From Halalkalicoccus jeotgali B3 (lineage in GTDB: Archaea; Halobacteriota; Halobacteria; Halobacteriales; Halalkalicoccaceae): a DNA stretch of 64,000 bases. Below, piece by piece: positions 13,892 through 63,044 of this stretch (its first letter is position 1; the number at the start of each line of letters is the position of its first letter). The stretch covers positions 992,001-1,056,000 of the forward strand of contig NC_014297.1 of the NCBI RefSeq assembly GCF_000196895.1, read 5' to 3'. The notes below the pieces were generated by a model, which saw only the letters and a program-made list of their open reading frames with translations, made no database searches and was not told the origin of the DNA. The translations under genes were made by a program, and so were the position numbers.

Positions 13892-16099
13892 TCAGTTGGT
13901 CGTGACCACGCTGTACGGGTCGTGAACGGTCGTGTCCGTATGCGCTGTCACACTCGGGGCGTCGACCGGGCCCGTCCAGAGATCCGTGTAGGGCAGCCCC
14001 GTGAGGTCGATGTCAGCGTCCGAATCGACGTTCAGGAGTTTAACCGTCCCGCCAGTCGTATCCGATTCTCCGGCGACGATCGCGTCGAGACCCGTAGCGT
14101 CGATCTCGAAGTCCGTCCCGTCGAACTCGAAGTTGCCTTCCTCGAGAATGAGCGGTCCGATCCCGGTCTGGGCGTCGGCATGGACGCGAATGTCGCACTC
14201 GTCGAACTCAACCCGCCCGCGAACCGTCGCCGAGTAATTCGCGATGAACTCGGTCCCGATCGCCTTGATTGTCGAGTTGACGCCCGAGGAAATGATGCGC
14301 CCGCGCTGGAGCTCCCAGCGCCGGTCTTCGGTCCCACCGTGGTCGTCCATCGTATCGTCCGGGCCCCGGCAGTGAACCGACCCGCCAACCACAACCATCC
14401 GGCCGGCGACCTCGGCACCGTGAAACGAGAGGCCGTTCATCGAGACGCGAGATATCTGCGGATGGATGACCATCAGCGTATCACAGCCCGACCGGATGTC
14501 GGGCCCCCGGCGGACGCCCAGTGCTCGCGGTCGGACGAGCGCTATGTCAGTCGAGCCGTTGAAGTAGAACGGCTCGCCGCAAGACCCCGAGAGATTCATC
14601 GGCCTCTCCGCCCGAAGGTCCGCACCGACTGCGTTCATGTCGTCGCTCGTCGTCCAGACGTGCGAATCGAATCCGCGTGCGTAGACGTCCTGGATTCGTG
14701 CTCCCCGAGTCAGTCGCGTGCCGATGATGTGACGCGGCCCGCCGAGGACCTTCCCCACGCTTTCGTCGAACGTGGGCTCGTTGCGCGGGTAGACTTTGAG
14801 CCCCTGAATCTCGGGGAACTGGATCTGATTCTCGATGTGGGTCGCATACCAGTTGTCCTGGACGTCGTACCGGAGCGCCTTCGTGAGCTTGATCTCGCCC
14901 GTCGAGTCGTTGACCTCGGAGACGGTCGCAACGGTCGGCGTGTACGACCGATCCATCACCGAGCCAGCGGTATCGATATTCCGAACGACGATCCCGTCGC
15001 CGATATCGAATAGCCCTGGGTCGTCGATATACAGCGAGTCGGTGCCTCTCGGCGCACTCGAAGAAATTCCCGCTGTACTCCCGAGTTCGCCCCGGAAATA
15101 GAAGAGGGGTCGGTAGTGATTCTGATCGTTGGGATAGGCGAGCCCGTCGTGATAGTCCGATTCGATCCGCGCGCGGCGGGCGTCGATCGAGATCGCCTGC
15201 GTGATGCGGAGCTGATCCGCGAGGTAGTAAGTCCCGCTTCCGAAGACGATCTCGTCGTGCTCGTCACAGACGTTGTTCGCGAGGTCCTCGATCGCTGCCG
15301 ATGAGTCTTCGATACCAGTGGGGTCCGCGCCGTAGTCGTCGACGTGATACGATGCTCCGGTTCCATCGCCACCACTGCCGCCACCACTACCACCGCCGGT
15401 ATCGACGTTGCCCTGGATCCACCCGATCGTCGCGTACTCGTCCGTTTCGCTGGGGGGCGACGTTGCCCGGGCCGAGCTAAAGTACCCTGTCGCCGGATCG
15501 CCTTCGCTGCCGACCTGCCCACCTTCGTGACCCTGCGAGTCGTGCCCGCCGAGTTCCTGCTGGCGGACTCCGTCGGTCGGCTCCTCGGGCGGGTTCTCGA
15601 TCGATAGCGACTGCGTTGAGACATCACCGAACGTCGGATTGATGTCCGTAAAGCGGCGCAGGATGTCACCGTTCGCGATCTCACTAACACCGGGGTCGAC
15701 CCAGATCTCGCACAGCGGCGTCCCGTCGATCTCCTCGAACGTCGGTGGGGCCGGCCGCTTTGCCGTCTCAAGCCGGACGTACGATTCGCGAGGATGTTTC
15801 TCCTCTGGCGTGCCGTCGTTGACGATGAGCTCGTTACTCGCGTTGATCGAGAGGACGTCCCGTCGGGGATTGTCACTCGTGTTCTCGGGGATCGAGACTG
15901 GCTCGGCGTCGTGCTCCTGGAACGACCCGGCGACGGCGGCAATGCCCTCTGACACGGCAAGGGTATCCGCTTCGCCGACAGTCCCACTGCCGACCGAAAC
16001 CTCGAGGCCGGAGACCACGCCGTAGCCGGCGAAGGCCGCCGCGAGAACGCCGTAGTCGACCGCTTGGTACGCCTGATAATCGTCTAATGTGTATGGCAT
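13892..16099 (-). CDS. Tail fibre / tailspike with parallel beta-helix (paralogue 1)
   Basis: 735 residues. N-terminal attachment domain (to about residue 180) parallel to that of the next fibre. Then a short linker with SARATSPPSETDEYATIGWI and a Gly/Ser hinge (TGGGSGGGSGGDGTG), then a pectate-lyase-like start, YHVDDYGADPTGIEDSSAAI, EIVFGSGTYYLADQLRI, and a long beta-helix with PEIQGLKVYP, GARIQDVYARGFDSH, GLSFHGAEVAGRMVVVGGSV. The VDDYGADPTG motif marks phage tailspikes and pectate-lyase-3 domains. Likely the main host-surface-binding or depolymerising spike. It is the first of the large fibre genes after the baseplate-proximal appendage proteins. Confidence 0.87.
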   Translation of the reverse strand: MPYTLDDYQAYQAVDYGVLAAAFAGYGVVSGLEVSVGSGTVGEADTLAVSEGIAAVAGSFQEHDAEPVSIPENTSDNPRRDVLSINASNELIVNDGTPEEKHPRESYVRLETAKRPAPPTFEEIDGTPLCEIWVDPGVSEIANGDILRRFTDINPTFGDVSTQSLSIENPPEEPTDGVRQQELGGHDSQGHEGGQVGSEGDPATGYFSSARATSPPSETDEYATIGWIQGNVDTGGGSGGGSGGDGTGASYHVDDYGADPTGIEDSSAAIEDLANNVCDEHDEIVFGSGTYYLADQLRITQAISIDARRARIESDYHDGLAYPNDQNHYRPLFYFRGELGSTAGISSSAPRGTDSLYIDDPGLFDIGDGIVVRNIDTAGSVMDRSYTPTVATVSEVNDSTGEIKLTKALRYDVQDNWYATHIENQIQFPEIQGLKVYPRNEPTFDESVGKVLGGPRHIIGTRLTRGARIQDVYARGFDSHVWTTSDDMNAVGADLRAERPMNLSGSCGEPFYFNGSTDIALVRPRALGVRRGPDIRSGCDTLMVIHPQISRVSMNGLSFHGAEVAGRMVVVGGSVHCRGPDDTMDDHGGTEDRRWELQRGRIISSGVNSTIKAIGTEFIANYSATVRGRVEFDECDIRVHADAQTGIGPLILEEGNFEFDGTDFEIDATGLDAIVAGESDTTGGTVKLLNVDSDADIDLTGLPYTDLWTGPVDAPSVTAHTDTTVHDPYSVVTTN

Positions 16100-48636: not shown

Positions 48637-48843
48637 ATGTCCGATATTAAAGAGCGGTTGTTAGATGTGATGGTCGTCTGTGAACCCTACTCAACGCGCG
48701 AACTAGCCCAAGAGGTCGGCGAGCCACGACGGACGGTCCTCTACAACCTCGAGCAGCTCGCCGACGATGGGGAAATAAATCGGAAGCAAAGTTCAAAGCG
48801 GGATGTGTCCTGGTGGATCGGGGTTGAGGCGGGACAAGGATGA
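48637..48843 (+). CDS. Winged-helix regulator, likely binds adjacent palindromes
   Basis: 68 residues from ATG 48637 (the TTG at 48589 lies within an operator; ATG at 48613 also possible). MSDIKERLLDVMVVCEPYST, RELAQEVGEPRRTVLYNLEQ, LADDGEINRKQSSKRDVSWW form a compact winged helix with a clear recognition helix (EPRRTVLYNLEQL). The stop overlaps the lipoprotein start by 4 bases (ATGA), so the two are one transcript. Palindromic operators immediately upstream make autorepression the simplest reading. Confidence 0.8.
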   Translation: MSDIKERLLDVMVVCEPYSTRELAQEVGEPRRTVLYNLEQLADDGEINRKQSSKRDVSWWIGVEAGQG

Positions 48844-49454
48844 ACCGTCGACAGTACCTCAAGACAGGCGGTGCAACGGGCCTCGCCCTCGGGACGGCGG
48901 GCTGTCTCGGGTGGCTTCCGTGGCGCGATGATAGTGATCAGAAGCAAGTCCAAGAGGGCGCGCCCAGTGAAGGAAGTGACGAGCCCACGGAGAACGATAC
49001 CTCTCCAGAGACAGACGAGCAGTCTGCAACCGGCGAGAAAGAGGAGGATAAGCGGACAGAGGCCGAAAACGAATCCGAGGGCGAACGGAATCCCCTCCCA
49101 GACGAGAATGATACTGAGATCGATCGAGAACAGTACAATGAGAGTGAAGAACGCGACGTAACGGAACTCGACGAATCATCCGTCTCCGTCGTAACTGATG
49201 CAACAGTTGACGATAGCGGGAGTGTAACTGTCCAGATTAAGGTGACAAATACGACCGACGCGACGATTGATGGCGTCGATCTCGAAGTCATATATCTCGA
49301 TAGTGCGGGTAAGGAGATCGGGTTGGACTTGAAAGTCGTTCAGGGGCTCGGGCCGAGAGGAACAGAGTCCGTCGAAGCTCGTGCAAGCCCAGTCGATCTG
49401 CGTGGAGATATCGCAGAAGTGAGCGTAACCCCGACGCCACAGAACTACTCGTAA
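48840..49454 (+). CDS. Tat-exported lipoprotein with FxLyD-type domain
   Basis: 204 residues. Signal: RR at 3-4 (MNRRQYLKTGGATGLALG), lipobox ending TAGC with the lipid-carrying Cys22. Then a long disordered acidic linker (DEPTENDTSPETDEQSATGE) and a C-terminal beta domain from about residue 118 (SVSVVTDATVDDSGSVTVQI, KVTNTTDATIDGVDLEVIYL) of the FxLyD/DUF3426 type seen in haloarchaeal lipoproteins. Anchored outside the membrane. Co-transcribed with the regulator, so its production is controlled; function unknown, perhaps exclusion or signalling. Confidence 0.85.
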   Translation: MNRRQYLKTGGATGLALGTAGCLGWLPWRDDSDQKQVQEGAPSEGSDEPTENDTSPETDEQSATGEKEEDKRTEAENESEGERNPLPDENDTEIDREQYNESEERDVTELDESSVSVVTDATVDDSGSVTVQIKVTNTTDATIDGVDLEVIYLDSAGKEIGLDLKVVQGLGPRGTESVEARASPVDLRGDIAEVSVTPTPQNYS

Positions 49455-49456
49455 CC

Positions 49457-50665
49457 CTATGGGATCTGTTGGACGGCCTCGAACGGGTTCGCCCACTGGT
49501 TGCCCGATGAATAGATGTTGACGAACCCATGTTCGTCGCGCGTATAGCGCGATGGGACACCACTCTGTTCGATTCCTGCACCAATTCCGGGGTGCGAACA
49601 CCGGTTGTCCTCGAAGTAAAAGCCGTCGAGTGGGACGCCGCGAATCCGAGCGTGGGGAGTTCCACCGCCCTGATTGTGGTTGATGAAGGGGAGATCTGGA
49701 ACTCGCTTGGCGAGGATATCACTCCCGCGGACGAGCATCGTCCCCCCTGCTCGTTGCTCCCAGTTCGAATCGGACGGGTCCGACGACCCACTCTCGTTTT
49801 CCCCAACACGGTGCATATCAAGTGGATGCGAGCTGGTCCACGGCCCGATCGTCGACTCAAGAACGTAGTAGTTCGCGTCGGCATGGCCCGACCCACACAT
49901 TGCGTGACGAGCGGCATCAAGGTATGATTTATAAACAGTCACATCGCCGTGACGAATGTCGACACAGTAGCCGTATGATGTCATCATTGTGTTGTGGACG
50001 TGACTGTACGCGACAATTGCGTTCGAAACCGCCCCCTCACCCCCGACAGCAATCCCTTGTACTGAGAAGGCCCACACTTCGGAGTTGTCCACACGGCAGT
50101 TGTCGCCCTGGATGTGAATACCGCGGGCGAACCGTGCCTCGCGCCATCGCTCGCGCTCAGCTTCGCTCCCTGGAGCGAACGGGAAGTACCCTGGTATCGC
50201 CTGATGCTCTGTAACACTCGTATGCGGTCCACGGATCTCGACGCCCGTGATGCGTGCATTATCCTCCATCCGGATGAGGCCAGTTCCATTCGAGCCGCCA
50301 GCCCATGCAGGCGACGAGGTGCCTTCATCTTCTGTGAGGATCGTCGCTCCACCAGTAGACGATGACCGACCCGAGGCGATCGTAACGTCCGTGACGGTAA
50401 GGGTCGTACCGGAAAAGTCGTAGAGGTTCTCCGACGGGAGCCAAACGACCCGCCCGTCGTTTTGCGAGGCGTGGTGCTTGAGTTGCTCGACAGTATCGGC
50501 CTGCACGTCCGCGTCCCCGGGCTGGATGTCTTGAAGGGCGGGGACGCCACCACTCGGCAGCCGACCCGCACCAGGACCGTTATACTCAACAGTACAACCC
50601 GCCACGCCCACCACCGCCGCTCCGGCAAGCCCGGTGAGGAATTGGCGCCGGGTGGTCGGGTTCAT
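49457..50665 (-). CDS. Tat lipoprotein with beta-helix domain related to tail fibre
   Basis: 402 residues. Twin-arginine signal with RRQFLTGLAGAAVVGVAGCT; lipobox Cys at position 24, so it is anchored on the cell surface. The rest is a right-handed beta-helix: VTDVTIASGRSSSTGGATIL, GLIRMEDNARITGVEIRGPH, CRVDNSEVWAFSVQGIAVGG. The region DAARHAMCGSGHADANYYVL then PLDMHRVGENESGSSD matches the interrupted virus fibre at 7357 (RHA..G.GH.D and P.DMH...EN, same order and spacing). Starts 60 bases from a 40-bp promoter element shared with the secretion operon. Convergent with the lipoprotein at 48840, two bases apart. Likely surface adhesin. Confidence 0.85.
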   Translation of the reverse strand: MNPTTRRQFLTGLAGAAVVGVAGCTVEYNGPGAGRLPSGGVPALQDIQPGDADVQADTVEQLKHHASQNDGRVVWLPSENLYDFSGTTLTVTDVTIASGRSSSTGGATILTEDEGTSSPAWAGGSNGTGLIRMEDNARITGVEIRGPHTSVTEHQAIPGYFPFAPGSEAERERWREARFARGIHIQGDNCRVDNSEVWAFSVQGIAVGGEGAVSNAIVAYSHVHNTMMTSYGYCVDIRHGDVTVYKSYLDAARHAMCGSGHADANYYVLESTIGPWTSSHPLDMHRVGENESGSSDPSDSNWEQRAGGTMLVRGSDILAKRVPDLPFINHNQGGGTPHARIRGVPLDGFYFEDNRCSHPGIGAGIEQSGVPSRYTRDEHGFVNIYSSGNQWANPFEAVQQIP

Positions 50666-50692: not shown

Positions 50693-50732
50693 GCAATAAT
50701 ACTTACGAACCGTCCAGATAATTCGTCAAGTC
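50693..50732 (-). promoter_or_regulatory. 40-bp promoter element, copy A
   Basis: Leftward strand reads GACTTGACGAATTATCTGG then ACGGTTCGTAAGTATTATTGC (40 bases). It matches copy B (61607-61646) at 33 of 40 positions. It contains an imperfect dyad ACTT-ACGAA / TTCGT-AAGT and a TATA-like TATTAT end about 28 bases before the lipoprotein ATG. Predicted operator-promoter shared by two operons. Confidence 0.75.
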
Positions 50733-50752
50733 CACAGGGTGGAAGGACGGGG

Positions 50753-53599
50753 TTACTCGAGCCGGGATTCTAGATCGGCGAACTTATCCCCGATAGACCC
50801 ACCCGAGCCGGAGGCTGTTGTCTCATCGTCCGGTGCATCCTCAGCAGCACTATCCGCGGTGTCGTCTCCATCCTCAACCAGGGACGTAGGCGTGTACCGC
50901 AGAGGTTCCTCACTCGCCGACAGGAGATCCTCAGTATCCGCCAGATCGCCAAGGTCGTCGAAGGGGACGGCCTCGCCGTGATGGATGAGCGAAAGGTCCG
51001 CTGCCCGTGTCGTCCCTTCAGGAACGATTACGACGGCCCAGTGTTCCCGTGAGAGAGATGGCTCGGGCACGAGTTCGGTCGGTGCCCCAACCGCGACGTA
51101 CTCCTCGCGTTCGGGATCGCCTTCTTCAAAGTCGGATTCGCGAGCGGGATACTTCCCAATGGCACCCGATGAGTCGATGTCTTCGCGTGTTTTGAACGAC
51201 GCTATCGACGTCCCGTCAGTGTCCTCGAGCACCCAGTGATATCCGTCGTCCGGGTCGGGATCGTACCACCACACCGCGTTTCCGCCCTTGACGCGGAGCA
51301 TGGGCTCGCCGTCGACTGTGACTGTTCCGAGATTGTACGAGCGCCGACGCCCGTTCTCGTCGACCTCGCGGCAGTACATCGGATCGGTGAGCGTATCGTA
51401 GACCTTCCATGCTTTCTCGGGACGGGCGGCGTAGAGACATCGTTCGCCGTCCTCGATGGCGTCGTGGAGGTGGCGAAGGGTCTGTCCGGGGCTGGACTCG
51501 CCGGTCGAGTCTTCGAGCTCCACGCGGACGTTCTTGCCTCCTGAGAGGGCAGCGAGTTCGGGGTTCTCCTCCATGAACCGTTCGCGGGCCTGGCGTGAAT
51601 CTTCCGGGGTGACGATGTCCCACGAAACGGCATCCTTGAAGGCCCGCTCGATCGACGCGAACCCGTCGCTGGATCGGCCGATGGTCTGTTGCTCGATCTC
51701 GGTGTCGAAGCCTGCGTCAGTGAGGGCGTCGTAGAGTTCCTTGATCGCTTTGCGGTGGTCGCCCTTGCCGTCAACGGGCGAACCGCTGATCTTCTTGAAG
51801 AGAGTGATGCCACGGGACGTCGTCTTGAGTTTGACCTCACCGTCGCGCTTCTCTCGCTCAACGAGGTCGTCGCCGACCATGTCGAGGACACCCCACACCT
51901 GGGACTCGTGGCCGAGGTCTTCGCGATCGACGCCCAGATTATCGATGAGGCGGTGTTGGATTAGATCGGCAGAGACAAAGCCGTCATCATCACCGTGCTC
52001 GATCGCGACGTCATGGACTGTCTTACAGGTCTGGCGTTCGACACGGTCAAGGTCGATGTCAGCGACGGCCATCGACTTTCGGTTCCCGCTATCGTCGAGG
52101 ATCGCACCGGCCCCGTCGAGCTGCCCGTCGCCGCGATTGAGGAGTAGCTCGTCCATGAGTTGCTGGTCGGACTTTGGCTCATGTCCGTCTCGGCGGACGA
52201 TCCGCTCGATATGGTGGTCGGCTTCGGTTTGAGTGATCGTTGGCGGGAATGGCGGGAGTGCGTAGACACGGTATGGGTCCGGCGGCCCGACCGAAGTCTT
52301 CATCCAGACATGATATTCCTCTTCGTCGCGGAGTGTTTCCCACTTGAGTCCAAGATTTTTCCCGACGACCTTGCAGGCGTCGGCTGAGCCGACGGAGAAG
52401 GACATCTTCGTATCGCACTGGCTGAAGAGTGCTCCGACGATCTCAGGCGGGAGTTGATCGGGATACTGGCAACAGAGGAATAAACAGAGCCGCGAGGTCC
52501 GCGCCTTCGAGAGCATCGTCGGGAGTGAGGACCCCTCATGAGCCAGCAGATCAGCTTCGTCCATAAGGAGATGGAAGTTATCCGGGCCGCTCCCTCGCGA
52601 GCTCTTATCACCATCCCGGTCGCGTGCGGCGGCCCACGTCCGGCGGAGGATGGCCGTCCCAACCATCTCTTTGATACCCTCGTCCTCTTTGTTCATCCGC
52701 ACGATGAGGATCTTGCCCTCGTCAATCACCTCTTGAAGGTTGATCGTATTGCCCCGGTGGGCGAACACGCGCCTCGCGATGGGGTTCTCAACCCAGTTTT
52801 TGAAGCGCCTGCGGATCGCGTCCAGGTCGTCATCATCGTACTCGGCGAGCTTATCGGCGAACAGCGCGAGGAAGATGTGGCCCGATGCGTTGACCATGTC
52901 CCTGTAGCGCTCGCGGTTCTCCTGATCCGCGAGGATGAAGTACAGGTCGATCATCGTGAACTCGGCGTCGTGGCGAGCGGCGAATCGGATGATGTTCTCC
53001 GCGATCGCGTCCATCAGCGGCCCCCAGTAATTACTCGCGCCGAGCATCTGCACCAGGTCGTTAAGGATATTCTCGACGATTAGTTCAAATTCGGGGTGGT
53101 CCGGGGAAACGCCAGGGTCGAGGAAGTTGAACCCGGTCTGGGCAGACCGAGTGCCGGCGGGCTCAAGCCATACGACGTCGCCTTTCCGGTGGTCGGGGAG
53201 GATGGAGTAGAACCGTTTTGCACCGTCGCCTTTGGGTTCGATATAAATCATGCCGTCGCCGGACTCGGCGATCGTCCGGCCGGCATTCATCATGAGGTTC
53301 GACTTCCCATAGCCCGTGCTCCCGAAGAGGACAGTGTGCTGGCGAAGGTCCGTCTGGTCGATTGAGGCGTGGCCACCGCGACGCGTTCCGACGCCGACTG
53401 CGATGGGGCTCTCGGCGTCAGCTCGCGGCGACCGCATCATCTGACGGGCGAGATACCCGGCAAAGACCTGCTCGTTGCTGTGTTCGTCGGTTCCATGTGA
53501 CCGGAGCGTCTCATTCCCTTCGACGGCCTCGGTCGACTCCTCTTCCCAGATGTAGAGGCCGTCATCAGGGCTCAAGGGTTGTGTTGGGGCAGCCGCCAC
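50753..53599 (-). CDS. VirD4/TraG-type coupling ATPase
   Basis: 948 residues. RecA-like motor: Walker A LFGSTGYGKSNLMMNAGRT (93-100), then MIYIEPKGDGAKRFYSILPD, and Walker B NFHLLMDEADLLAHEGSSLP with SKARTSRLCLFLCCQYPDQL (the sensor typical of VirD4/HerA-like ATPases). A C-terminal region of about 500 residues carries a winged-helix-like part and further alpha/beta domains unique to archaeal versions. Couples DNA substrate to the secretion channel, or acts as a packaging-like ATPase. Its start overlaps the stop of the 365-residue partner by one base. Confidence 0.85.
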   Translation of the reverse strand: MAAAPTQPLSPDDGLYIWEEESTEAVEGNETLRSHGTDEHSNEQVFAGYLARQMMRSPRADAESPIAVGVGTRRGGHASIDQTDLRQHTVLFGSTGYGKSNLMMNAGRTIAESGDGMIYIEPKGDGAKRFYSILPDHRKGDVVWLEPAGTRSAQTGFNFLDPGVSPDHPEFELIVENILNDLVQMLGASNYWGPLMDAIAENIIRFAARHDAEFTMIDLYFILADQENRERYRDMVNASGHIFLALFADKLAEYDDDDLDAIRRRFKNWVENPIARRVFAHRGNTINLQEVIDEGKILIVRMNKEDEGIKEMVGTAILRRTWAAARDRDGDKSSRGSGPDNFHLLMDEADLLAHEGSSLPTMLSKARTSRLCLFLCCQYPDQLPPEIVGALFSQCDTKMSFSVGSADACKVVGKNLGLKWETLRDEEEYHVWMKTSVGPPDPYRVYALPPFPPTITQTEADHHIERIVRRDGHEPKSDQQLMDELLLNRGDGQLDGAGAILDDSGNRKSMAVADIDLDRVERQTCKTVHDVAIEHGDDDGFVSADLIQHRLIDNLGVDREDLGHESQVWGVLDMVGDDLVEREKRDGEVKLKTTSRGITLFKKISGSPVDGKGDHRKAIKELYDALTDAGFDTEIEQQTIGRSSDGFASIERAFKDAVSWDIVTPEDSRQARERFMEENPELAALSGGKNVRVELEDSTGESSPGQTLRHLHDAIEDGERCLYAARPEKAWKVYDTLTDPMYCREVDENGRRRSYNLGTVTVDGEPMLRVKGGNAVWWYDPDPDDGYHWVLEDTDGTSIASFKTREDIDSSGAIGKYPARESDFEEGDPEREEYVAVGAPTELVPEPSLSREHWAVVIVPEGTTRAADLSLIHHGEAVPFDDLGDLADTEDLLSASEEPLRYTPTSLVEDGDDTADSAAEDAPDDETTASGSGGSIGDKFADLESRLE

Positions 53600-54696
53600 T
53601 AGTCCGCCACCTCTGGTTCAGAATCGCCGAGGTCGAGATTGGAATGGAACGTGTGGCTTTCCCGCGGGACGCCAGGGCCCGACTCGCGAGTCGCCCACTT
53701 CACGTCGGGGACCTCAATTGACCCGTTCGGAAGGTGGAAGAGCCCTTCCCATTCTTGGATCGTGAATGCGTTCGACGTTCCGTGGAGGAAGCGGCCGACG
53801 GGCGAGCGTTTCCGAACGCGCCGCCGGACGAGATCTTCAGCCTCGTTTATATTGCCAGTGTGCTTGAAGTATGTCGGTCGAAGTTTCTGCTTGTTGGCGT
53901 AGTCGTATTTTGAGAAGGACTTAGCGGCCTTTTCAAGAGCGGTTTGGACATCCGATTTATCAGGGCCGATCGCCATGAGACGGATACTGGTTCGAAACGT
54001 CTCATCGGAGACCTGCTTTTGCATATCTTTCGCGAGGTCTTCGTTGAGGTCAGACTTCACGACCTTTGTCGTCTCTTGGCGCAAGCCGATTGAAAGCGTG
54101 CCCTGTCGGGTCGAATCGGCGATTCGATCACCGTCGCCGCCGATCCGTCCGCGCTTGTACCACTTGCTCGAGATGGGTTTGCCACAGCCCTGAACAATCA
54201 GTCGGACATCATTCTCGTTGACGAACTTCGGGAGTGTCGACGAATACGGGTCGCCATCCAATGGATCACCGGTCGAGTCGCGGAAAGATATCGGGTGGAT
54301 GGCGTCGAGTTGTGGTTCGACGCGGCAGGTAAACACCCACTCGCCGACCTTGGCATCGGGGAGTGGGTCTTGGTACGTCTCCATCCGGCTGTTGGCGTAC
54401 TTAGAGTTGATCAACGACTGGATGTCGCTAAGGTCCTCGTCGGCAGCAGTGATCTGGGCAGTCAATTGATCTCGGAACCACCATTCGAAACTGAAGGTCC
54501 CGCCTTTTCGACCAGTGCCGACAGTGTTATAGATATCTTCAAGGAAGTCTGCGCCGCCGCTCATACCAGCAGTATCGACATAGGGCCGCACCTCTAAGCG
54601 GTTCGGATGTTCGATTTCGTGATAGAGCCGATCGATGCGATCCTCGAGAAGTTTCGTCGGTTTACCACCCCAAGAGACCCAGGAAAGGATGCTCAT
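53599..54696 (-). CDS. Coupling-protein partner (N-terminal domain, split VirD4-like)
   Basis: 365 residues. Features KLLEDRIDRLYHEIEHPNRL, RKGGTFSFEWWFRDQLTAQI, SDIQSLINSKYANSRMETYQ and DAKVGEWVFTCRVEPQLDAI. From memory this resembles the separate N-terminal domain of archaeal VirD4-like proteins. Mainly alpha/beta, no transmembrane helix. It is translated just before the coupling ATPase (one-base overlap), suggesting they form one complex. Exact family name uncertain. Confidence 0.65.
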   Translation of the reverse strand: MSILSWVSWGGKPTKLLEDRIDRLYHEIEHPNRLEVRPYVDTAGMSGGADFLEDIYNTVGTGRKGGTFSFEWWFRDQLTAQITAADEDLSDIQSLINSKYANSRMETYQDPLPDAKVGEWVFTCRVEPQLDAIHPISFRDSTGDPLDGDPYSSTLPKFVNENDVRLIVQGCGKPISSKWYKRGRIGGDGDRIADSTRQGTLSIGLRQETTKVVKSDLNEDLAKDMQKQVSDETFRTSIRLMAIGPDKSDVQTALEKAAKSFSKYDYANKQKLRPTYFKHTGNINEAEDLVRRRVRKRSPVGRFLHGTSNAFTIQEWEGLFHLPNGSIEVPDVKWATRESGPGVPRESHTFHSNLDLGDSEPEVAD

Positions 54697-55700
54697 TCGT
54701 CGCCACCCCTGCTGTGCTGGAGTAGTTCCCAGTTAGGCCCGAGGTCGTACCACTTGCGTGCGAAGAGGTAGGCCGGGATGGAGATGATTGGTAGAAGTGC
54801 ACCCACTGTAACGCCCACTACGAGCGATGCGATACCTGTAGCGACGCTCATTCGAAGGACGAACAGTTCGCGGTCGTAGCGGGGGACCCAGTCGACTCGG
54901 GAGCAGCACCGATCAGCACGAACGGCAGTCTCGAGGTTTGTAAACCCAATAATGCCGCTTGCGATGTACATCGAGAGCCCCAGCGCAAACTGCCCGCTGG
55001 TCGATGCGAGTGGCACCGTCAGAGCCCCACCAACGAGCCCTGCGCTGGCGATCGCGAGAACGGACCACGGGCCATCCGAGAAATTAAATTCCTGAACAGT
55101 CGTCCCACGATGATCATTTTTCTCGCGTTCGTGGAGGTGAAGCCAGTAGCTCCCCACGAGTAAGATCGTGCCTGCGAGGACAATAGCGGAGATATTAGCA
55201 GTGTCGAGGTAGTTCAGGGTCGGAACAAGTCCAGATGTGAATGCAGTCATGATCGTGGTGAGGGCAGTAGCAGCGAAGAGGAGGACGATACCAGCGGCAG
55301 CTCGTCGAGCGAATAGTGTCTTAACAGGTCCACGGCTGACCCAGTGAATCACCTCATCAAGACGGGTGTTGATCTGTTGGTCACGGCGATTCTGTCGAAC
55401 GCGCATCTCCCACTCTTCGGTCCCGTGACAGTCGAGGCAGACGAGGGCATGGCTCTCGTCAGAGAAATCAACCTCATCGAGGTCGACGATGATCCAATCG
55501 CCGAGAGAAGTACCGTCGACAACCGTCCCGCAGCACTCGCAAGTCGAGCTGGCATTCCCGATCGTTCGGAGGATGACGCTTAGGTCATAGTCGTGTGGCG
55601 GCGTCGCTGTGGGGCTATCCCCGTCCGTCTCACCAGCACCATCCGAACTATTTTGAGTTGTCACGTTGGAATTTGTTCCAGTAGACATATTATTAAGCAT
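54693..55700 (-). CDS. Multi-pass membrane protein of the secretion operon with zinc knuckle
   Basis: 335 residues from ATG 55698-55700 (55688 also possible), overlapping VirB4 end by 8. N-terminal TCECCGTVVDGTSLGDWIIV and HALVCLDCHGTEEWEMRV make a CxxC...CxxC zinc site; then five hydrophobic helices (AGIVLLFAATALTTI, ISAIVLAGTILLVGS, VLAIASAGLVGGALT, ALGLSMYIASGIIGF, TGIASLVVGVTVGAL). Conserved position between VirB4 and coupling proteins suggests a channel component, but no recognised family. Confidence 0.65.
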   Translation of the reverse strand: MLNNMSTGTNSNVTTQNSSDGAGETDGDSPTATPPHDYDLSVILRTIGNASSTCECCGTVVDGTSLGDWIIVDLDEVDFSDESHALVCLDCHGTEEWEMRVRQNRRDQQINTRLDEVIHWVSRGPVKTLFARRAAAGIVLLFAATALTTIMTAFTSGLVPTLNYLDTANISAIVLAGTILLVGSYWLHLHEREKNDHRGTTVQEFNFSDGPWSVLAIASAGLVGGALTVPLASTSGQFALGLSMYIASGIIGFTNLETAVRADRCCSRVDWVPRYDRELFVLRMSVATGIASLVVGVTVGALLPIISIPAYLFARKWYDLGPNWELLQHSRGGDE

Positions 55701-57645
55701 TATCACCACCTCCATTGTCAGACGGATCCTTGCCGAGTTTGAGCAGTTCCTCCGCTAACGGTTTGATCTTTACCGGGTACGTCCCGTGGTCGTCGATATC
55801 AGCTAAACAGTGTGAATATCCCCGCTTTGGCGTCCCTTTGTTCATCTTCCGGGCGAAGGCGCACTCGTTCTCAGTGAGGCCCAGCTTCTCGCCATACTCG
55901 TCGAAGTGGATGCCCGGTTCTTTGTGAATAAACTTGTGTGACGTAAGGTTCGCAAGCGTCTCGGCCTTCGGATGGATAAAGAAGTCCTGAGCCTGCTGGG
56001 TGATCATATGCAACGAGATGTCGAAGTGTCGGGAGTGGCGGACAATCTTTTCGAGCCACTCGAGACTGTTTGGCGTCTCAAACAGCCGGTGGATCTCGTC
56101 GATGGCAATGACCATGCGTTTGTCCGACGCCTTAGCGCGCTGGTAGATCACGTTGAATGGAGCCTGGAGTCGGAGGGCCTTCTCCCGATCTGAACCGCCC
56201 TGTTGCACGTCGATTAGCGTGGACTTGCCTGAGAGGTCAATGTTCGAGCGGCGCCCCAGATTGGCAAAGTTTCCACCCTCGAACGAGTCCATCGCCATGT
56301 GAAGGTCCGCAGCAGCGTCTTCCCATTTCTCGGAATCGCGAACGTTCGATGCGCGATCGTCACTCGAGAAGTTGTACTCGCCATCTGGCGTTCGGGCGAA
56401 GAATCCCTCGGCATCGTCGGCGATCATGCCAAGCGTCTCGCGGAGATCGAGCGGTGCTGGACTCGGATTTGAGTGGGTCTTCGGATCTTCGTTGATCTCC
56501 ATCCGGTAGGCGGTCTTGCGGATCCCTTTCTGCAGAACCGTCCACTCGTCTCGTGTGAGACCGCCGTCAGAGCCGCCGGCCTGCGAGAAGAACGTCTCAA
56601 ACCACCCCAGCGTCGTCGATGCCCAATGGTTGAACGGGTTGAGTCCCTCTTCCTCAACAACGTGAATGGGCGTTGGCTGGATCTCCATCGGGTTGACAGC
56701 GTTCTCACCACCGAGAGGGAGGCGCTTTGCTCCAGTTTCATGGGCGAGTTTGTCGAGGCCGTTGACCGGGTCAATCATCACGAGGATGGTGTCGGGATCC
56801 ATCGCAAGCCGTCGAAGCAACATCATCATCGTCCCAAAAGACTTGCCTGACCCGAGGTCGCCGATAGTGAGTGCGTTGTAGCCCCCCTCACGATTCCAGC
56901 GGTCGAAGGCGAACGGCTCGTCAGTAACCGCGTGGTACCCGATCAAGACACCATCGGGCTCGTAAAGCGTACTCGCAGAAAACGGGAACATCGCACCAAC
57001 GGCATCCCCAAGCATCTTTCCCGACGCACCACCGAGCATGTCCTTCGCGATCGGGGACGTGCTTGTTAGTGCGTCGTCGCTCTGGTAGTCGATCGTTCGG
57101 ATCGATATATCGTTCTTGTTGAGCTCGTCAGTGATCGAGCGTGCCTCGTTAGTGACGACATCTCTCGACTTGCCTCGAATGCGAATGTAAACGCCGACAT
57201 CCCAGAGTTTCTGTGACCCCGTCTTGAGTTCATCGCGGATGAACTGGTGCTCTGCGATCTGCTGTTTTGTGAGGCCGATATCCGGATCCTCTTGTTTCTG
57301 CTGCTGGCGGAGTTTGACTTTGAGCTTCTGAATCGACCGGTCGATCTTCTGGACCATCTGCTGACTGTCAGCCGGATTGAAGTGAATGACGGGTTCGACA
57401 GCCGTGTTGGGGTGCGTATTGATCAGGTCAATGATTCCCGGTTCGATCTTCGAGGGCATCGACGTGATACAGAGGTGCTTGATCCAGTCTTCGCCAGACC
57501 GGCACCCGCCTAGTTCGTAGGCGACCGACGACGGGCCGACAGCACGCGCTTGGTGTTCTCGGGCCTCATCGACGGACCCAGTGTCCGCACTCGTGTCGAA
57601 CTTGTCCGATACTTTTTCCTTCAGGTGTGCGATTTTTCCACTCAT
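55693..57645 (-). CDS. virB4: VirB4-type conjugation ATPase
   Basis: 650 residues. N-terminal VirB4 part with FNPADSQQMVQKIDRSIQKL and DVGVYIRIRGKSRDVVTNEA; central linker PFSASTLYEPDGVLIGYHAV; motor with Walker A ALTIGDLGSGKSFGTMMMLL (262-269), the segment MDPDTILVMIDPVNGLDKLA, and Walker B MVIAIDEIHRLFETPNSLEW followed by SRHFDISLHMITQQAQDFFI. This is the signature ATPase of type IV secretion systems. It is preceded by a gene encoding a PrgI/VirB4-N-like protein with 1-base gap. Confident as the energy source; whether it drives DNA transfer or pilus/other export is unknown. Confidence 0.93.
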   Translation of the reverse strand: MSGKIAHLKEKVSDKFDTSADTGSVDEAREHQARAVGPSSVAYELGGCRSGEDWIKHLCITSMPSKIEPGIIDLINTHPNTAVEPVIHFNPADSQQMVQKIDRSIQKLKVKLRQQQKQEDPDIGLTKQQIAEHQFIRDELKTGSQKLWDVGVYIRIRGKSRDVVTNEARSITDELNKNDISIRTIDYQSDDALTSTSPIAKDMLGGASGKMLGDAVGAMFPFSASTLYEPDGVLIGYHAVTDEPFAFDRWNREGGYNALTIGDLGSGKSFGTMMMLLRRLAMDPDTILVMIDPVNGLDKLAHETGAKRLPLGGENAVNPMEIQPTPIHVVEEEGLNPFNHWASTTLGWFETFFSQAGGSDGGLTRDEWTVLQKGIRKTAYRMEINEDPKTHSNPSPAPLDLRETLGMIADDAEGFFARTPDGEYNFSSDDRASNVRDSEKWEDAAADLHMAMDSFEGGNFANLGRRSNIDLSGKSTLIDVQQGGSDREKALRLQAPFNVIYQRAKASDKRMVIAIDEIHRLFETPNSLEWLEKIVRHSRHFDISLHMITQQAQDFFIHPKAETLANLTSHKFIHKEPGIHFDEYGEKLGLTENECAFARKMNKGTPKRGYSHCLADIDDHGTYPVKIKPLAEELLKLGKDPSDNGGGDNA

Positions 57646-57646
57646 A

Positions 57647-59086
57647 TTAACTCATTGCCTCTTTTGTCTCCGCATCTGCATCCGCGGCCTCCGTTGCTGT
57701 GTCCGACTGCTCCATCTCCTCGACAAGGGCCGCAGCAGCCTCTTCTATCGAATCATACTCTTTGCCAAGACTCGCCTCATCGGGCGCGGTCGATCCAGGC
57801 GATTCATCCGAGAGTTCCGGTTCGGAAGCAGTACCGAGATCTTCGTCGACGTTGTCTTCCGGGACGTCTTCAATGGTGCCAGCAGACCGCTGTAGATCGG
57901 AGATGATCTGCTGATCGAGTTCGTCATCGGCCAACTGGTCGGGCGAACGCATGTCGCCCTGCGTTTCCGTATATTCGCGAGACATCGTGACCAGCGGGAG
58001 TGAACGGTCGTCCCGTTCTTCAGTTACGACGCGCTCGCCGGTCCACGACTCCTCGAGGACGCTAATCAAGTCGTCCATTGAGAGTTGGTCCGCATCGCAA
58101 CCAGTGATGCCCGCGAGATTTTTCTTGAGAGAGTTCCGTCGACCATTCATGACCTGCTCTTGTCGATAGCGAATCTCTGGGACAGTGAGATCCCTCGAGG
58201 CCAGCAATGAAGCGATTGTGGAGCCGACCAGAGGAAACTCGTCCAGACGGCCGAGGACCCGGTGGCCCTGCATTTGGACCTCCTCCATCGTGACCGGAGC
58301 AAGCATCTGGAAGCCGCGAATGCTGGCGTTCTTCGACTCCATCTGATTTGAGAGGTTGTCCTTGTACATCGAAACGTTCTGCTGGAGATTCGGGTTACTC
58401 CGGACATCCGTGTCCCCCAGTCGATCGCCGAATTTTCGCTTAACACCCTCAGTATCGATTTTAACCGAGCCGTTTCGGAGTTCTCCCGAGTGGCTGAGGG
58501 AATTGACGATGTCCCCGAGCTCGTCGGCGGCAGTCTCCCAGTCGGCCTGTGTGGCAAGCGAGAGTTCGGCAGGATCAATACTCACACCACCAACCAGAGC
58601 GCCATCGAATCGCCACACAGCATCGGATTGTGGTGCAAACCCATCGACACGGGTGAGATCCTCCAAGGCACGACGATCGCCGTTAGTCGAGATACTGTCC
58701 TTCGTGATCCGTCCCGAGTCGCCCCTGTGTGCCGACCGGTAATCAGACCCGAATTTGAACCCCTTCTTGCACTTCAACCATTTGTAGAAGGACATCCCCG
58801 GTGGCGATACGTAGATGCCGACGACGACGGTTCCGATGAGGAGTGTCGACATACCGAGGGCGAGGAGTGCCCAGTTGCGGCCGTCGGGGACGACGTTGCC
58901 GACGATGAGGAACGTCATCAGCGACCCGAACAAAAGAAGGATGTCCGAGAACGCGATGTCTGTATCGGTAAAGTCCATTACCCCCATCGTCCCGAGCGAG
59001 TCGAGATTCCGACGGGTGGCGTTCTTCTTCCCGTGGAGCGATTCAACCAAATCTTCGATTTGTGTTTGTTCCGAGTTGCTTGCCAT
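57647..59086 (-). CDS. PrgI/VirB3-like plus VirB4 N-domain-like protein
   Basis: 479 residues from ATG 59084-59086. Two hydrophobic helices near the start (SDILLLFGSLMTFLIVGNVV, LLALGMSTLLIGTVVVGIYV) match VirB3/PrgI topology; the remainder FDGALVGGVSIDPAELSLAT, ELGDIVNSLSHSGELRNGSV, LAPVTMEEVQMQGHRVLGRL resembles the N-terminal half of VirB4 proteins, suggesting that VirB4 is split over two genes. Ends in an acidic tail. The long open frame upstream of 59086 is basic antisense-like and rejected. Confidence 0.72.
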   Translation of the reverse strand: MASNSEQTQIEDLVESLHGKKNATRRNLDSLGTMGVMDFTDTDIAFSDILLLFGSLMTFLIVGNVVPDGRNWALLALGMSTLLIGTVVVGIYVSPPGMSFYKWLKCKKGFKFGSDYRSAHRGDSGRITKDSISTNGDRRALEDLTRVDGFAPQSDAVWRFDGALVGGVSIDPAELSLATQADWETAADELGDIVNSLSHSGELRNGSVKIDTEGVKRKFGDRLGDTDVRSNPNLQQNVSMYKDNLSNQMESKNASIRGFQMLAPVTMEEVQMQGHRVLGRLDEFPLVGSTIASLLASRDLTVPEIRYRQEQVMNGRRNSLKKNLAGITGCDADQLSMDDLISVLEESWTGERVVTEERDDRSLPLVTMSREYTETQGDMRSPDQLADDELDQQIISDLQRSAGTIEDVPEDNVDEDLGTASEPELSDESPGSTAPDEASLGKEYDSIEEAAAALVEEMEQSDTATEAADADAETKEAMS

Positions 59087-59087
59087 A

Positions 59088-61046
59088 TTAGATCCCTCGT
59101 GCGTTATCAACAGTCGACCGACTCTCTGCATTCTGTTCAGCTTCCGAAAGGCCGAGGCCATGATTATCTGACTCTGCGACTTCCGAGACATCGTAGAACT
59201 GCTGGTCGTTCTCTCCACGAACGAACAAGTCGCGTTCGCCGTAGGCATCGTCCACTCGCTTGAACGTCTCTCCAGTAACCATCTCCGACGATCGGGGGAC
59301 ATTGAGCATCTTCTGGAACTCGATGTCGGTTCCCGGACCGCTGCCGGTGAAGTACCCTGCACGATACTTCTGGTCGCCGGGCAGATCGTCCGGAGAAGTG
59401 ACCGTCGTAATCGACGGATCATCCACAGAGACACGTCCCTCGGGAGAGTCCCGCACAGTAGCACCAGACGAGGTCCCCGACGAGGAGTGGCTTGCACTCG
59501 CGCTAGCGGACGGCCCTGACGACGGGCTAGGTCCAGATCCACCAGGAAGAGCTGTCCCCGACGGATTCGTTCCAGTAGATGCTCCCGCAGACGTGGGTGC
59601 GCTTGCGCCCGTGTCAGCGGATGCGAGGTCAGAGCCACCCGTAGAGAGTCCCGACGAGGACGAACCAGAACCGAGCGCCCCGCCCGTCCCCGAGCCGCCA
59701 CTGCCGAGTGCGTGCCCATTGACTGCGTTGCTGATACCGCCAGCAGCTGCCGACGTGCCAGACCCAGCAGCCCCACCAGCGGCGGCACCAGCTCCAGCAG
59801 CGCTACCACCGCCGAGTCGGCCAAGCGCACTCGAGATCGCGCCAAGGCCGACCGATCCGGCGATGATGGCACCGGCACCAGCACCGACCCGCTTGAACCA
59901 GAACAAGTATATCGACGAGATGAACGCCAAGAGCCAGATCACGATGATTGCGACTGCGCTCACAGGGACAGCGCCCCACTCTGCAGGCCCCGGCAGGAGG
60001 TTCTCGATCGCACCGAGAACCGAGTATCCCACTGAGAGGACGACAACCGCGGGTAATGGGAAAAACGCCGCGGAGGGGAATAACTCGAGGACGCCTTCGA
60101 ACGCTTCGGCGACACCCTTCATGATCCACACCTTCGGCACGCTCATGGCGATCAGTATCGGCATGGCTGGGAAGATGACATAGAGAAACAGCCAGGTCAC
60201 GAAGAACGTGAATGCCATCGCGAGGGCGAACGCGCCACCGAACGCATAGAATAGGAGGATGCTGATTCCGGCCGCGGCATTGTTCGCAGCGATCGAGGAT
60301 GTATCGGGAGCAATCGTGCTCGGATCAAGTGGAACGGCGTTCATCGCGAACGACGCTGCAAAGAGGATGATCGTTCCGAGCGCCCACGAAAACGGGATGA
60401 GAAGCAGCTTGATCCATGCCTCTTGCTGGGCGATCTTGATCTGCTGGTAGGTCGGCGTCGGCGGCCATACCATCCCCAGGATATACAGAACGAGGGTCAT
60501 GATGAGCCAGATCGCCGCCCCTGCGACTAAACTGACGCCGTACCAATACTCGTACAGGATAGACATCAGGTCTCCATCGGGTTCGCCACTGACGGCGACC
60601 GAGCCATCCTGCATCGGATAGACCGTACTCGACTGGAGTGCCTCGGCCATCGAGACGAGGAGGTCAGTCCCGAACGTGAACCACGGCTCGAAGAAACTGA
60701 TGAGGAGCCCGACGGGATCGATCGATATCGGGAAGATTCCACTGTCATCATTCTCCTCTGGTCGGTAGGTGTCCGAACCGCCGCCCGTCGCGTTTTCAGA
60801 CTCGCTTTCTGAATCATTCACAGCATCCCCGCCCTGTGGAGTAGGGTTCGATGGGACCGAGTCGACGCGATCAGAGGCCGAACTATTACCACTCGCGTTT
60901 GGGCTCTCGACGCCCGTCGTCTCATTGGATTGGGCCACGACAGGCCCAGCCCCAACCATAACTACAGCCCCGACACTCATCGAGATGAGAAGAACAACCA
61001 GCAGGGCAGAGAGTGTCGCGTTGGTCTGTCGGGGACGGGTTATCAT
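59088..61046 (-). CDS. VirB6/TrbL-like polytopic channel protein
   Basis: 652 residues from ATG 61044-61046. An N-terminal signal (TLSALLVVLLISMSVGAVVM), a disordered polar linker, and six to seven membrane helices (ISFFEPWFTFGTDLLVSM, SLVAGAAIWLIMTLVLYI, LLLIPFSWALGTIILFAA, GFAFALAMAFTFF-like region, LFLYVIFPAMPILIAMSV, PAVVVLSVGYSVLGAI, VSAVAIIVIWLLAFIS). The tail is rich in Gly/Ser/Ala with repeats before a small C-terminal domain (GDQKYRAGYFTGSGPGTDIE). This topology is that of VirB6/TrbL inner channel proteins. Confidence 0.78.
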   Translation of the reverse strand: MITRPRQTNATLSALLVVLLISMSVGAVVMVGAGPVVAQSNETTGVESPNASGNSSASDRVDSVPSNPTPQGGDAVNDSESESENATGGGSDTYRPEENDDSGIFPISIDPVGLLISFFEPWFTFGTDLLVSMAEALQSSTVYPMQDGSVAVSGEPDGDLMSILYEYWYGVSLVAGAAIWLIMTLVLYILGMVWPPTPTYQQIKIAQQEAWIKLLLIPFSWALGTIILFAASFAMNAVPLDPSTIAPDTSSIAANNAAAGISILLFYAFGGAFALAMAFTFFVTWLFLYVIFPAMPILIAMSVPKVWIMKGVAEAFEGVLELFPSAAFFPLPAVVVLSVGYSVLGAIENLLPGPAEWGAVPVSAVAIIVIWLLAFISSIYLFWFKRVGAGAGAIIAGSVGLGAISSALGRLGGGSAAGAGAAAGGAAGSGTSAAAGGISNAVNGHALGSGGSGTGGALGSGSSSSGLSTGGSDLASADTGASAPTSAGASTGTNPSGTALPGGSGPSPSSGPSASASASHSSSGTSSGATVRDSPEGRVSVDDPSITTVTSPDDLPGDQKYRAGYFTGSGPGTDIEFQKMLNVPRSSEMVTGETFKRVDDAYGERDLFVRGENDQQFYDVSEVAESDNHGLGLSEAEQNAESRSTVDNARGI

Positions 61047-61066
61047 AGAAAGGGTCACTGGACGGA

Positions 61067-61585
61067 TTAGAGAATGCCGAGCCCACCAGTAACGCACTCG
61101 GCAAATGTGAAGCCGAACACGTCGCCGAAGACCATCTGGATTAAGGTCGGGGCGAGGAGTGCAACGCCGAGTCCCATGAACCCACGCTTGGCCCAGTTGA
61201 TGTCGCCCTCGAGCTTACCCGGTGTTTTGTGTATCGCGTAGGACATGCCGGCAACGATCAAGACGCCAAGGCAGACGACGAAGCCGATACGTTGGAGCAT
61301 CGGAAGGCCATTGGCTGCTGCCTGCTGTGTGATCGTGGAACAACCTTCGCCACCAACATCCTGTGACTGAGCCAAGACAGTCCCGACGGAGAACATGTAC
61401 GCAGTGATCCCGATTAAGGCGTAGATCGCCATGTCGGCCGCCATGGAGCGTGTCTCGTGAAGGGCATACTTCAGCCGACTCGATTCTTCGCGATCAAGTG
61501 GGTTCGTTCGTGAGCGTGCGATTCGGCCCGCCAGGCCGGACATCGCAGGTTCGTCGTCATCGGTACAGGACGTATCTGAGTCCAT
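61067..61585 (-). CDS. Small three-helix membrane protein, VirB2-pilin-like
   Basis: 172 residues. Polar N-terminus (DSDTSCTDDDEPAMSG), then a first hydrophobic region MAIYALIGITAYMFSVGTVL, a loop GGEGCSTITQQAAANGLPML with one Cys, and two more helices IGFVVCLGVLIVAGMSYAIH and FMGLGVALLAPTLIQMVFGD ending AECVTGGLGIL with a second Cys, perhaps disulphide-linked outside. First gene of the secretion operon; position and two-helix hydrophobic core resemble VirB2 pilins, but archaeal identity is not firm. Confidence 0.6.
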   Translation of the reverse strand: MDSDTSCTDDDEPAMSGLAGRIARSRTNPLDREESSRLKYALHETRSMAADMAIYALIGITAYMFSVGTVLAQSQDVGGEGCSTITQQAAANGLPMLQRIGFVVCLGVLIVAGMSYAIHKTPGKLEGDINWAKRGFMGLGVALLAPTLIQMVFGDVFGFTFAECVTGGLGIL

Positions 61586-61606
61586 AGTAGTACACTATCC
61601 TCATGT

Positions 61607-61646
61607 GCAATTAAACTTACGTATCGTCCAGTAAATTCGTAAAGTC
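61607..61646 (-). promoter_or_regulatory. 40-bp promoter element, copy B
   Basis: Leftward: GACTTTACGAATTTACTGGA then CGATACGTAAGTTTAATTGC. Differs from copy A (50693-50732) in 7 of 40 positions. Contains the dyad ACTTTACGAA / ACGTAAGT and an AT-rich end about 22-33 bases before the first gene of the secretion operon. The rightward regulator at 61733 lies divergently on the other side, so is the natural candidate to bind here. Confidence 0.75.
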
Positions 61647-61732: not shown

Positions 61733-62098
61733 ATGTCATCCCGATTGACCCCTGTCGACAACCAGATTCTTACTGTTCTCAGCCTTGAATGTGCACGCAC
61801 CCAGGGCTACCTTGCCGACCGGACTGGCCGATCGAGACAACAGATCCACACTCGTCTTCAGATCCTCTCCGAGGGGAGGGCGCTCCGACGCGTTCATTCA
61901 TCCACAGCCACCTACGAGCTTATTACAGACCCGCGGGGTGGCGCTGACCAGCCCCTCGTGGAGCTGCAACTCATCAATCCTGACGGGGACGATCTCGGGA
62001 CTGAAGAAGTACAGCTTGATTCTGCGGGCGTTCCGGTCGTACATCGCTACCAGTGGTATGACGAGGACGGCGATGGCGAGCAGCCCGCCGGCGATTGA
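61733..62098 (+). CDS. Winged-helix regulator, paralogue of the 3.4-kb regulator
   Basis: 121 residues. N-terminal winged helix LTPVDNQILTVLSLECARTQ, GYLADRTGRSRQQIHTRLQI, then RRVHSSTATYELITDPRG; the same skeleton as the gene at 3190. C-terminal part (PLVELQLINPDGDDLGTEEV, GVPVVHRYQWYDEDGDGEQP) is a beta domain. It is divergent from the secretion operon and faces copy B of the 40-bp element, so it most likely represses or activates that operon and, through copy A, the beta-helix lipoprotein. Confidence 0.8.
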   Translation: MSSRLTPVDNQILTVLSLECARTQGYLADRTGRSRQQIHTRLQILSEGRALRRVHSSTATYELITDPRGGADQPLVELQLINPDGDDLGTEEVQLDSAGVPVVHRYQWYDEDGDGEQPAGD

Positions 62099-62486: not shown

Positions 62487-63044
62487 ATGGCAATAGCAGT
62501 GGACTCCACCGTCGAGATGGATACCACCCTCCATCACAATGCTGTCAACGTCCTCCTCGCGATCTACGATGCGGAAGACGAGACAGCTAACACAAGCCAG
62601 ATAGGGGCCGTTACGGGGCTCTCAAGTGCCAATATTTCCGGCGGACACGCTCAGACACTTGAACGGGAAGGATTGATTGAACGAGCTGGATCTGTCGAGA
62701 GTAGCGCGCCGAGGGATACGAACGTCTATACCGTAACACACCGTGGTCGGAAGGAAGCAAAGCGTCTTTTAAATGAAACCGATGCCGAGGTTCCGATGTC
62801 GGATGGGGAGAAGTTGGCCCTGTTGAATCTGCTCAAAGACCATGCCGGTGGCATCGAACAAGCCCCCAGGAGTAGAGGGCAGGATGCGGTAAGCCGAGAA
62901 GAGCTCAAGGAACTCCGTCAAGAGGTAGCCGAAGTTAAATCGATGCTGGAGAGTCACGAAGAGCGGCTGAATGACCATGACGATGGTTTCGAAAACGCAT
63001 GGAATACATTAGAGAAGGTCGTAGATAGAGTAGTGGAAGACTAA
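62487..63044 (+). CDS. Winged-helix protein with C-terminal coiled coil
   Basis: 185 residues. N-terminal MarR-like winged helix: NAVNVLLAIYDAEDETANTS, QIGAVTGLSSANISGGHAQT, LEREGLIERAGS and wing NVYTVTHRGRKEAKRLLNET. Then a coiled coil (SREELKELRQEVAEVKSMLE, SHEERLNDHDDGFENAWNTL) for oligomerisation. It neighbours the repeat region and converges with the ParB-like gene, overlapping it by 4 bases at the stops. Could bind the repeats as a partition-site or copy-control protein. Confidence 0.75.
   Translation: MAIAVDSTVEMDTTLHHNAVNVLLAIYDAEDETANTSQIGAVTGLSSANISGGHAQTLEREGLIERAGSVESSAPRDTNVYTVTHRGRKEAKRLLNETDAEVPMSDGEKLALLNLLKDHAGGIEQAPRSRGQDAVSREELKELRQEVAEVKSMLESHEERLNDHDDGFENAWNTLEKVVDRVVED

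Follow-up and report, generated by a model that had tools for sequence, protein, structure and literature searches.

A 40-bp promoter element probably unites a type IV secretion operon and a surface lipoprotein gene of Halalkalicoccus jeotgali B3 in one regulon

The promoters of a type IV secretion system (T4SS) operon and of a lipoprotein gene of the beta-helix family share a 40-bp element in a 64-kb stretch of Halalkalicoccus jeotgali B3 chromosomal DNA, referred to here as the window, and three related elements retain the core of the 40-bp sequence at both corresponding promoters. The winged-helix regulator encoded at 61733, divergently from the operon, belongs to a family that is linked to T4SS pilins and to CGTAA-type repeats. 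We consider it fairly probable that the element is a shared operator, likely bound by the 61733 product, which unites the operon and the lipoprotein gene in one regulon. Such a regulon was the core of the original prediction, and both the conservation in related elements and the promoter signature of the regulator family speak in its favour.

Results

The T4SS-like operon occupies the minus strand of the window from 61585 to 50753 and consists of seven genes, including those of a VirB4-like ATPase and a VirD4/TraD-type coupling protein. Its first gene (61067..61585, minus strand) encodes a pilin-like protein of 172 aa, whose match to PF18895 (T4SS_pilin, E 4e-5) is weak, the 23.9 bits being under the gathering cut-off of 26.6. 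The ATPase (55693..57645, minus strand, 650 aa) shows an AAA_10/TraG P-loop and is of the VirB4 type of conjugative-type T4SS, with matches to NCBIfam VirB4-like models (E 5e-41 and 8e-40) that stay under the curated equivalog cut-offs. The coupling protein (50753..53599, minus strand, 948 aa), encoded by the last gene before the second copy of the element, exceeds the gathering score of TrwB_AAD_bind and is of the VirD4/TraD type. Four minus-strand operon genes are without clear family, and their products measure 669 aa (59088..61097) and 745 aa (57647..59884), both lacking a family match, 340 aa (54693..55715) and 365 aa (53599..54696). The lipoprotein gene lies directly 3' of the operon and shares its strand, and read-through from the operon into it is also possible. 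At ~10-44 kb the window carries a tailed-virus-like block with terminase, portal, sheath, tape-measure and baseplate genes.

A VirB4 search detected T4SS genes in 205 of 394 haloarchaeal genomes, so they are widespread in this group. The nearest system among the searched genomes is found on contig C4 of genome G001, where VirB4 is 88% identical, the order of the operon is the same and the divergent regulator reaches 60%. The homologs there amount to 67% for the 669-aa protein, at the same place, 63% for the 745-aa protein, 87-88% for the ATPase, 55% and 79% for the 340- and 365-aa proteins, respectively, and 83% for the coupling protein. Scans of genome-contig and viral-contig collections with degenerate VirB4 peptides returned no close relatives.

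The repeat was measured by an ungapped self-comparison of the window. Copy 1 (61607..61646, minus strand; minus-strand reading GACTTTACGAATTTACTGGACGATACGTAAGTTTAATTGC) stands upstream of the T4SS operon, before the pilin gene, with its proximal arm abutting the TATA-like TTTAATTG, and copy 2 (50693..50732, minus strand; GACTTGACGAATTATCTGGACGGTTCGTAAGTATTATTGC) stands 10.9 kb away, in the gap that separates the stop codon of the coupling-protein gene from the start of the lipoprotein gene. Both copies have the same orientation and are identical at 33 of 40 positions (score 26), so that the predicted agreement was returned at exactly the predicted coordinates. This is the top non-coding repeat of the window and the third in rank among all its repeats. 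The two higher-scoring repeats both fall within neighbouring tail genes at 13.5-16.1 kb. The claim that such similarity is unlikely by chance was upheld, since dinucleotide shuffles of the window (n=5) gave a maximum score of 21 versus 26, and the binomial expectation for a match of at least 33/40 among all same-strand pairs of the window is ~3e-4. A direct comparison of the 150-bp regions upstream of the lipoprotein and the pilin yielded a score of 26 versus a null maximum of 12. The gap to the start codon is 27 nt at the lipoprotein gene (50665) and 21 nt at the pilin gene (61585), within the predicted range of 21-28 bases. Upstream of the FxLYD gene of the window, the comparison of upstream regions revealed nothing exceeding chance.

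The dyad ACTT-ACGAA / TTCGT-AAGT, which had been proposed for both copies, is present in an imperfect form. The left arm reads ACTT(G/T)ACGAA, and the right arm reads TTCGTAAGT at the lipoprotein copy and TACGTAAGT at the pilin copy; the arms differ by one extra base in both copies and, additionally, by one mismatch at the pilin copy. TTTACG (or TTGACG)-N16-CGTAAG is a cleaner description of the dyad. Directly 3' of the elements, TATA-like boxes begin at -36 relative to the start codon of the lipoprotein (TATTATTG) and at -30 relative to that of the pilin (TTTAATTG). These distances are compatible with short or absent leaders, which are the haloarchaeal rule, Haloferax volcanii being 72% leaderless (PMC4983044). 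The right arm CGTAAGT occupies the position expected for the haloarchaeal BRE, directly 5' of the TATA-like box, and some of the similarity might therefore belong to the core promoter.

This position raises the question of whether the similarity is mainly that of a strong core promoter (BRE CGTAAGT plus TATA), accompanied by chance or recently duplicated flanks and implying no specific co-regulation. In haloarchaea the BRE is indeed placed directly 5' of the TATA box, as the conserved CGTAAG is, but the BRE proposed for them is CGAAA (PMC4983044) and not CGTAA. Moreover, the combination of CGTAA and an A/T run no more than 3 nt behind it is confined to the two element copies in the 64 kb, and the core described below is confined to these promoters in two genomes. 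Outside the genome of the window the match shrinks to ~14 bp, as a mere core promoter would lead one to expect; recent copying, on the other hand, would leave it unexplained why three other elements have the core at the equivalent two promoters. On balance, we regard an explanation by core promoter and flanks as improbable.

The promoter-proximal core TGKACNRTWCGTAA, a 14-mer, occurs exactly twice in the source genome and twice in G001, a count that is partly circular, as the pattern was drawn from these four sites. All four copies precede pilin or lipoprotein genes and none is found elsewhere in either genome; in other genomes, the 14-mer has one match in a further genome of the same genus and is absent from four others. 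Since the core was derived from its own sites, the argument rests on two fairer tests. In the first, the motif TGGACGRTWCGTAAG, derived from the window only, was found to match the lipoprotein promoter of G001 with 2 mismatches; this is one of 8 hits with up to 2 mismatches across the G001 genome (7.2 Mb of strand), equivalent to a chance of ~7e-5 per 60-bp promoter. The second is provided by two plasmids of Halalkalicoccus sp. FCH27 (unnamed2 and unnamed3), which were found later and had no part in the definition of the core. All lipoprotein promoters of FCH27 carry TTGACGGTACGTAAG, with 1 mismatch to the window motif, a level reached nowhere in G001, and the pilin promoters carry CTGTACTATACGTAAATTTAAT and CCATACTATACGTAAATTTAAT. 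Thus, the conservation check called for by the original prediction found the core at both pilin and lipoprotein promoters in contig C4 of G001 and in FCH27 unnamed2 and unnamed3. The left arm of the window is retained neither in G001 nor at the FCH27 sites, and the lipoprotein/pilin promoter pair of G001 taken alone is not significant, its score being reached by 12 of 60 shuffles.

The same element was also sought in the loci of a second, distant T4SS lineage (L048-L053) and was rejected there, as the lipoprotein and pilin promoters of these loci share another motif near the start; it is AAACTTATATTAGTATAA-like and, with 0 to 28 of 60 shuffles reaching its score, suggestive at most.

Dyads on a mobile-element-like stretch, present as two copies of the same orientation 10.9 kb apart, might also be recombination, oriT or partition sites that lie in intergenic gaps by chance. 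We hold this to be highly improbable, as all copies, the homologous ones included, directly adjoin a TATA box at 21-40 nt from a start codon, and the core holds this position in four elements.

The regulator encoded at 61733..62098 (plus strand, 121 aa) is a winged-helix protein with weak MarR_2/HTH Pfam hits, divergent from the pilin gene, and is the proposed binder of both elements. G001 and FCH27 have homologs (59-60%) in the corresponding position, and a search of 394 genomes of the order found the family in 29; at ~20 of the 30 loci examined across haloarchaea, a T4SS pilin is divergent from the homolog. Inverted TTACG...CGTAA pairs were present in 11/30 regions upstream of the homologs versus 0/209 control stretches from the same loci, where the 11 include the window locus, several loci are close relatives and one genus contributes many of those with inverted repeats, so that the count overstates independence. 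At Haladaptatus-type loci the promoter-proximal arm (TGTCCGTAAA or TGTGCGTAAGG) directly precedes TATTTAT at pilin promoters, an arrangement as in the window; four loci with 61733 homologs carry a different palindrome, ACTACGAWTCGTAGT, at or after the TATA box. The link of the family to T4SS pilins and CGTAA inverted repeats makes the 61733 protein the best candidate for binding the element, and its suggested role as the switch has gained weight from these results.

Alternatively, the regulon may be real and its switch another one: the element would then serve as operator for some other protein, first and foremost the second winged-helix (MarR/PadR-like) regulator encoded at 62487..63044 (plus strand), or for a host factor. 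The 62487 homolog lies beside the lipoprotein gene, and divergent from it, in the three relatives from G001 and FCH27; upstream of 62487, the window and G001 share a conserved stretch (71% over 456 bp), and its CTGTA repeats look similar to ones found before the G001 pilin. Against this stands an order-wide survey of the 61733 family, in which members from many genera were divergently oriented to T4SS pilin genes and accompanied by CGTAA inverted repeats. A switch other than 61733 thus appears rather unlikely, and the 61733 product is retained as the probable binder.

The second target gene (49457..50665, minus strand) encodes a twin-arginine lipoprotein of 402 aa, assigned to a right-handed beta-helix family, with RR6-7 and the lipobox cysteine Cys24. 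The Tat signal scores over the cut-off of TIGR01409, and R6, R7 and C24 are invariant in 11 homologs, as expected of a Tat lipoprotein. The window protein itself has no Pfam Beta_helix match; the assignment comes from a family member (L056) that matches PF13229 Beta_helix over the cut-off (1e-7). An AlphaFold model computed from two sequences was too poor to use (pLDDT 39), and a PDB sequence search gave only weak N-terminal matches in the signal peptide. No match was found among viral contigs, phages or PHROGs, so the expression "tail-fibre-like", under which the protein had been predicted, describes at most the fold, while its description as a surface lipoprotein holds in the form of a Tat lipoprotein of the beta-helix family. 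Besides the Arg-Arg pair and the lipobox cysteine, the family retains a polar set (R253, H254, D283, H285 and N290), which makes a glycan-active enzyme possible. The proposed adhesin is one among several possible roles, with surface exclusion and glycan enzyme activity as further candidates.

Genes of this family adjoin T4SS genes in ten regions of the same genus (L047-L053 and L056-L058), which are nearly all of its T4SS loci that were examined, and none was seen in L055 or L059. A profile search of the genome-contig collection returned one locus, in Halalkalicoccus paucihalophilus DSM 24557. Convergent with the first lipoprotein gene, its reading frame ending 2 bases apart from it, lies the gene of a second lipoprotein (48840..49454, plus strand, 204 aa) with an FxLYD domain (NF038353, E 9e-11, 41.4 bits vs a cut-off of 23), and the same pairing was observed at 8 other loci of the genus. 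In Halocatena, beta-helix-family lipoprotein genes lie near regulator and pilin genes, and in one genome (G382) the lipoprotein and pilin promoters have GGGTCGTAAA in common, which is anecdotal.

The T4SS proteins of the window share 55-88% identity with those of G001, the lipoproteins only about 33%. Trees place the two parts differently, each time with support of 100/100: the VirB4 of the window clusters with G001 and FCH27, the first T4SS lineage, and its lipoprotein, a long branch, clusters with the second; the identity to lineage-2 lipoproteins (44-48%, versus 34%) agrees with this grouping. From these sequence relationships, the lipoprotein gene of the window has apparently been replaced by one of the lineage-2 type. 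The strongest single point in favour of a role of the element in pairing the two units is that an apparently exchanged gene has the element of its present T4SS in its promoter.

Discussion

In the proposed mechanism, the 40-bp element would be an operator that adjoins the core promoter (BRE/TATA) on its 5' side and overlaps part of it, and the divergently encoded 61733 regulator would be its most likely binder. Through copy 1 it would control the promoter of the T4SS operon, and through copy 2 the gene that follows the operon, that of the Tat-exported lipoprotein anchored at the cell surface. The transfer machine and the surface lipoprotein may in this way form one regulon, switched together upon transfer of the element. 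Binding of the 61733 product itself is suggested by gene arrangement and by the repeats of its family.

The direction of regulation can be approached by analogy. The Haloferax OxsR is a single winged-helix protein with a palindromic motif, and its sites 5' of BRE/TATA activate, while 3' sites repress (PMC9426492). The likeness consists in a small winged-helix protein and a palindromic motif positioned relative to BRE/TATA; OxsR, however, is a thiol redox sensor with a CG-rich motif, and 61733 is likened to it by analogy only (PMC9426492). Judged by this parallel, the window sites would appear to serve activation, with which a position 5' of BRE/TATA is compatible. An arm lying on the BRE would fit repression and could equally block TFB.

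The lipoprotein may have its function where cells touch during transfer, serving in surface exclusion or mating specificity; a mating adhesin and a glycan enzyme are likewise conceivable roles. The quick turnover of the lipoprotein beside a conserved machine fits a specificity factor involved in surface exclusion or mating recognition. We put forward, as a tentative and rather doubtful extension, that the lipoprotein cassette might be an exchangeable specificity module, whose alleles move between distant T4SS lineages, have the operator of the resident T4SS imposed on them and encode the protein that decides on acceptance or exclusion. If true, archaea would have their own equivalent of surface exclusion or mating recognition, with a beta-helix lipoprotein at its base.

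In the literature searched, no regulator, trigger or surface partner of haloarchaeal T4SS machines was found. The present analysis provides a named candidate regulator, two exact putative operator sites and a second target gene outside the machine, along with a family of comparable loci in cultured species. Consequently, how archaeal conjugation-like elements switch on and choose or exclude partners becomes testable.

Several known systems offer points of comparison. Archaeal integrated elements that carry fusexins likewise contain VirB4 and TraG/TraD/VirD4-type genes together with the gene of a surface protein (PMC9259645); here, in contrast, it is a beta-helix-family lipoprotein that is linked to the machine, and through a promoter element. 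In the Sulfolobales, the Ced/Ups systems for DNA import and pili likewise show an archaeal machine for DNA transfer being induced jointly with surface structures (PMC11868833), but the machinery is different and the shared trigger there is DNA damage; the window VirB4 matches the CedB and CedD models weakly (E 0.009 and 3e-4, respectively), far under the cut-offs. On the F plasmid, the surface-exclusion lipoprotein TraT is encoded with the tra genes (PMC11733297, PMC12658005). The window protein, which has no TraT family match in Pfam or NCBIfam, differs from TraT in being archaeal, Tat-exported and of the beta-helix family. It resembles TraT in being a surface lipoprotein encoded together with a T4SS, and here the lipoprotein promoter has the element of the T4SS promoter.

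Lipoprotein genes and their promoters

Convergent genes for two different lipoproteins, whose ends touch or nearly touch, adjoin T4SS genes in nine loci: the window, where the FxLYD lipoprotein (48840-49454) meets the Tat-exported beta-helix-family surface lipoprotein (49457-50665) beside the T4SS genes, and L048, L049, L050, L051, L052, L056, L057 and L058. In six loci of the second, distant T4SS lineage (L048-L053), an inverted repeat, CCTTGTGCAACA ... TGTTGCACAAGG, is conserved 5' of the lipoprotein gene, approximately 90-170 nt ahead of its start. The FxLYD lipoprotein promoters of Halalkalicoccus sp. FCH27 have in common TACGAWTCGTACATACGTA-like palindromes immediately before the start (L148 near 23070, L149 near 16225 and L155 near 1313), in one of them in the version TACGTTTCGTA. 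These resemble the palindrome linked to the regulator in L100-L103.

Related genes and repeats within the window

The 61733 regulator has a paralog at 3190-3492 (-), with 41% identity over 70 residues, upstream of which a matching inverted repeat was not found. The ORF at 7357-8268 (-) shows 33% identity over 135 residues to the surface lipoprotein and retains the motifs DA.RHA..G.GH.D..Y and DMH...EN; it is a relative of that protein, and as called it has no lipoprotein signal. Two adjacent tail genes have extended stretches of DNA in common, at 13472-13872 and 15687-16093, in the form of imperfect repeats with 55/71 and 112/187 identical positions.

Plasmid contexts

The T4SS/lipoprotein region occurs twice on FCH27 plasmid unnamed3 (NZ_CP144464, 1-12 kb and 120-133.5 kb; L149, L153, L154), one copy lacking its start. 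A DUF5817 protein is encoded near the T4SS in the right flank of the window (L061:2757-5846), and on a Halocatena marina plasmid (NZ_CP109786, 29186-34342) such a protein accompanies an AAA-family ATPase, the regulator, the pilin and the lipoprotein. The presence of DUF5817 in both settings may reflect a common plasmid backbone.
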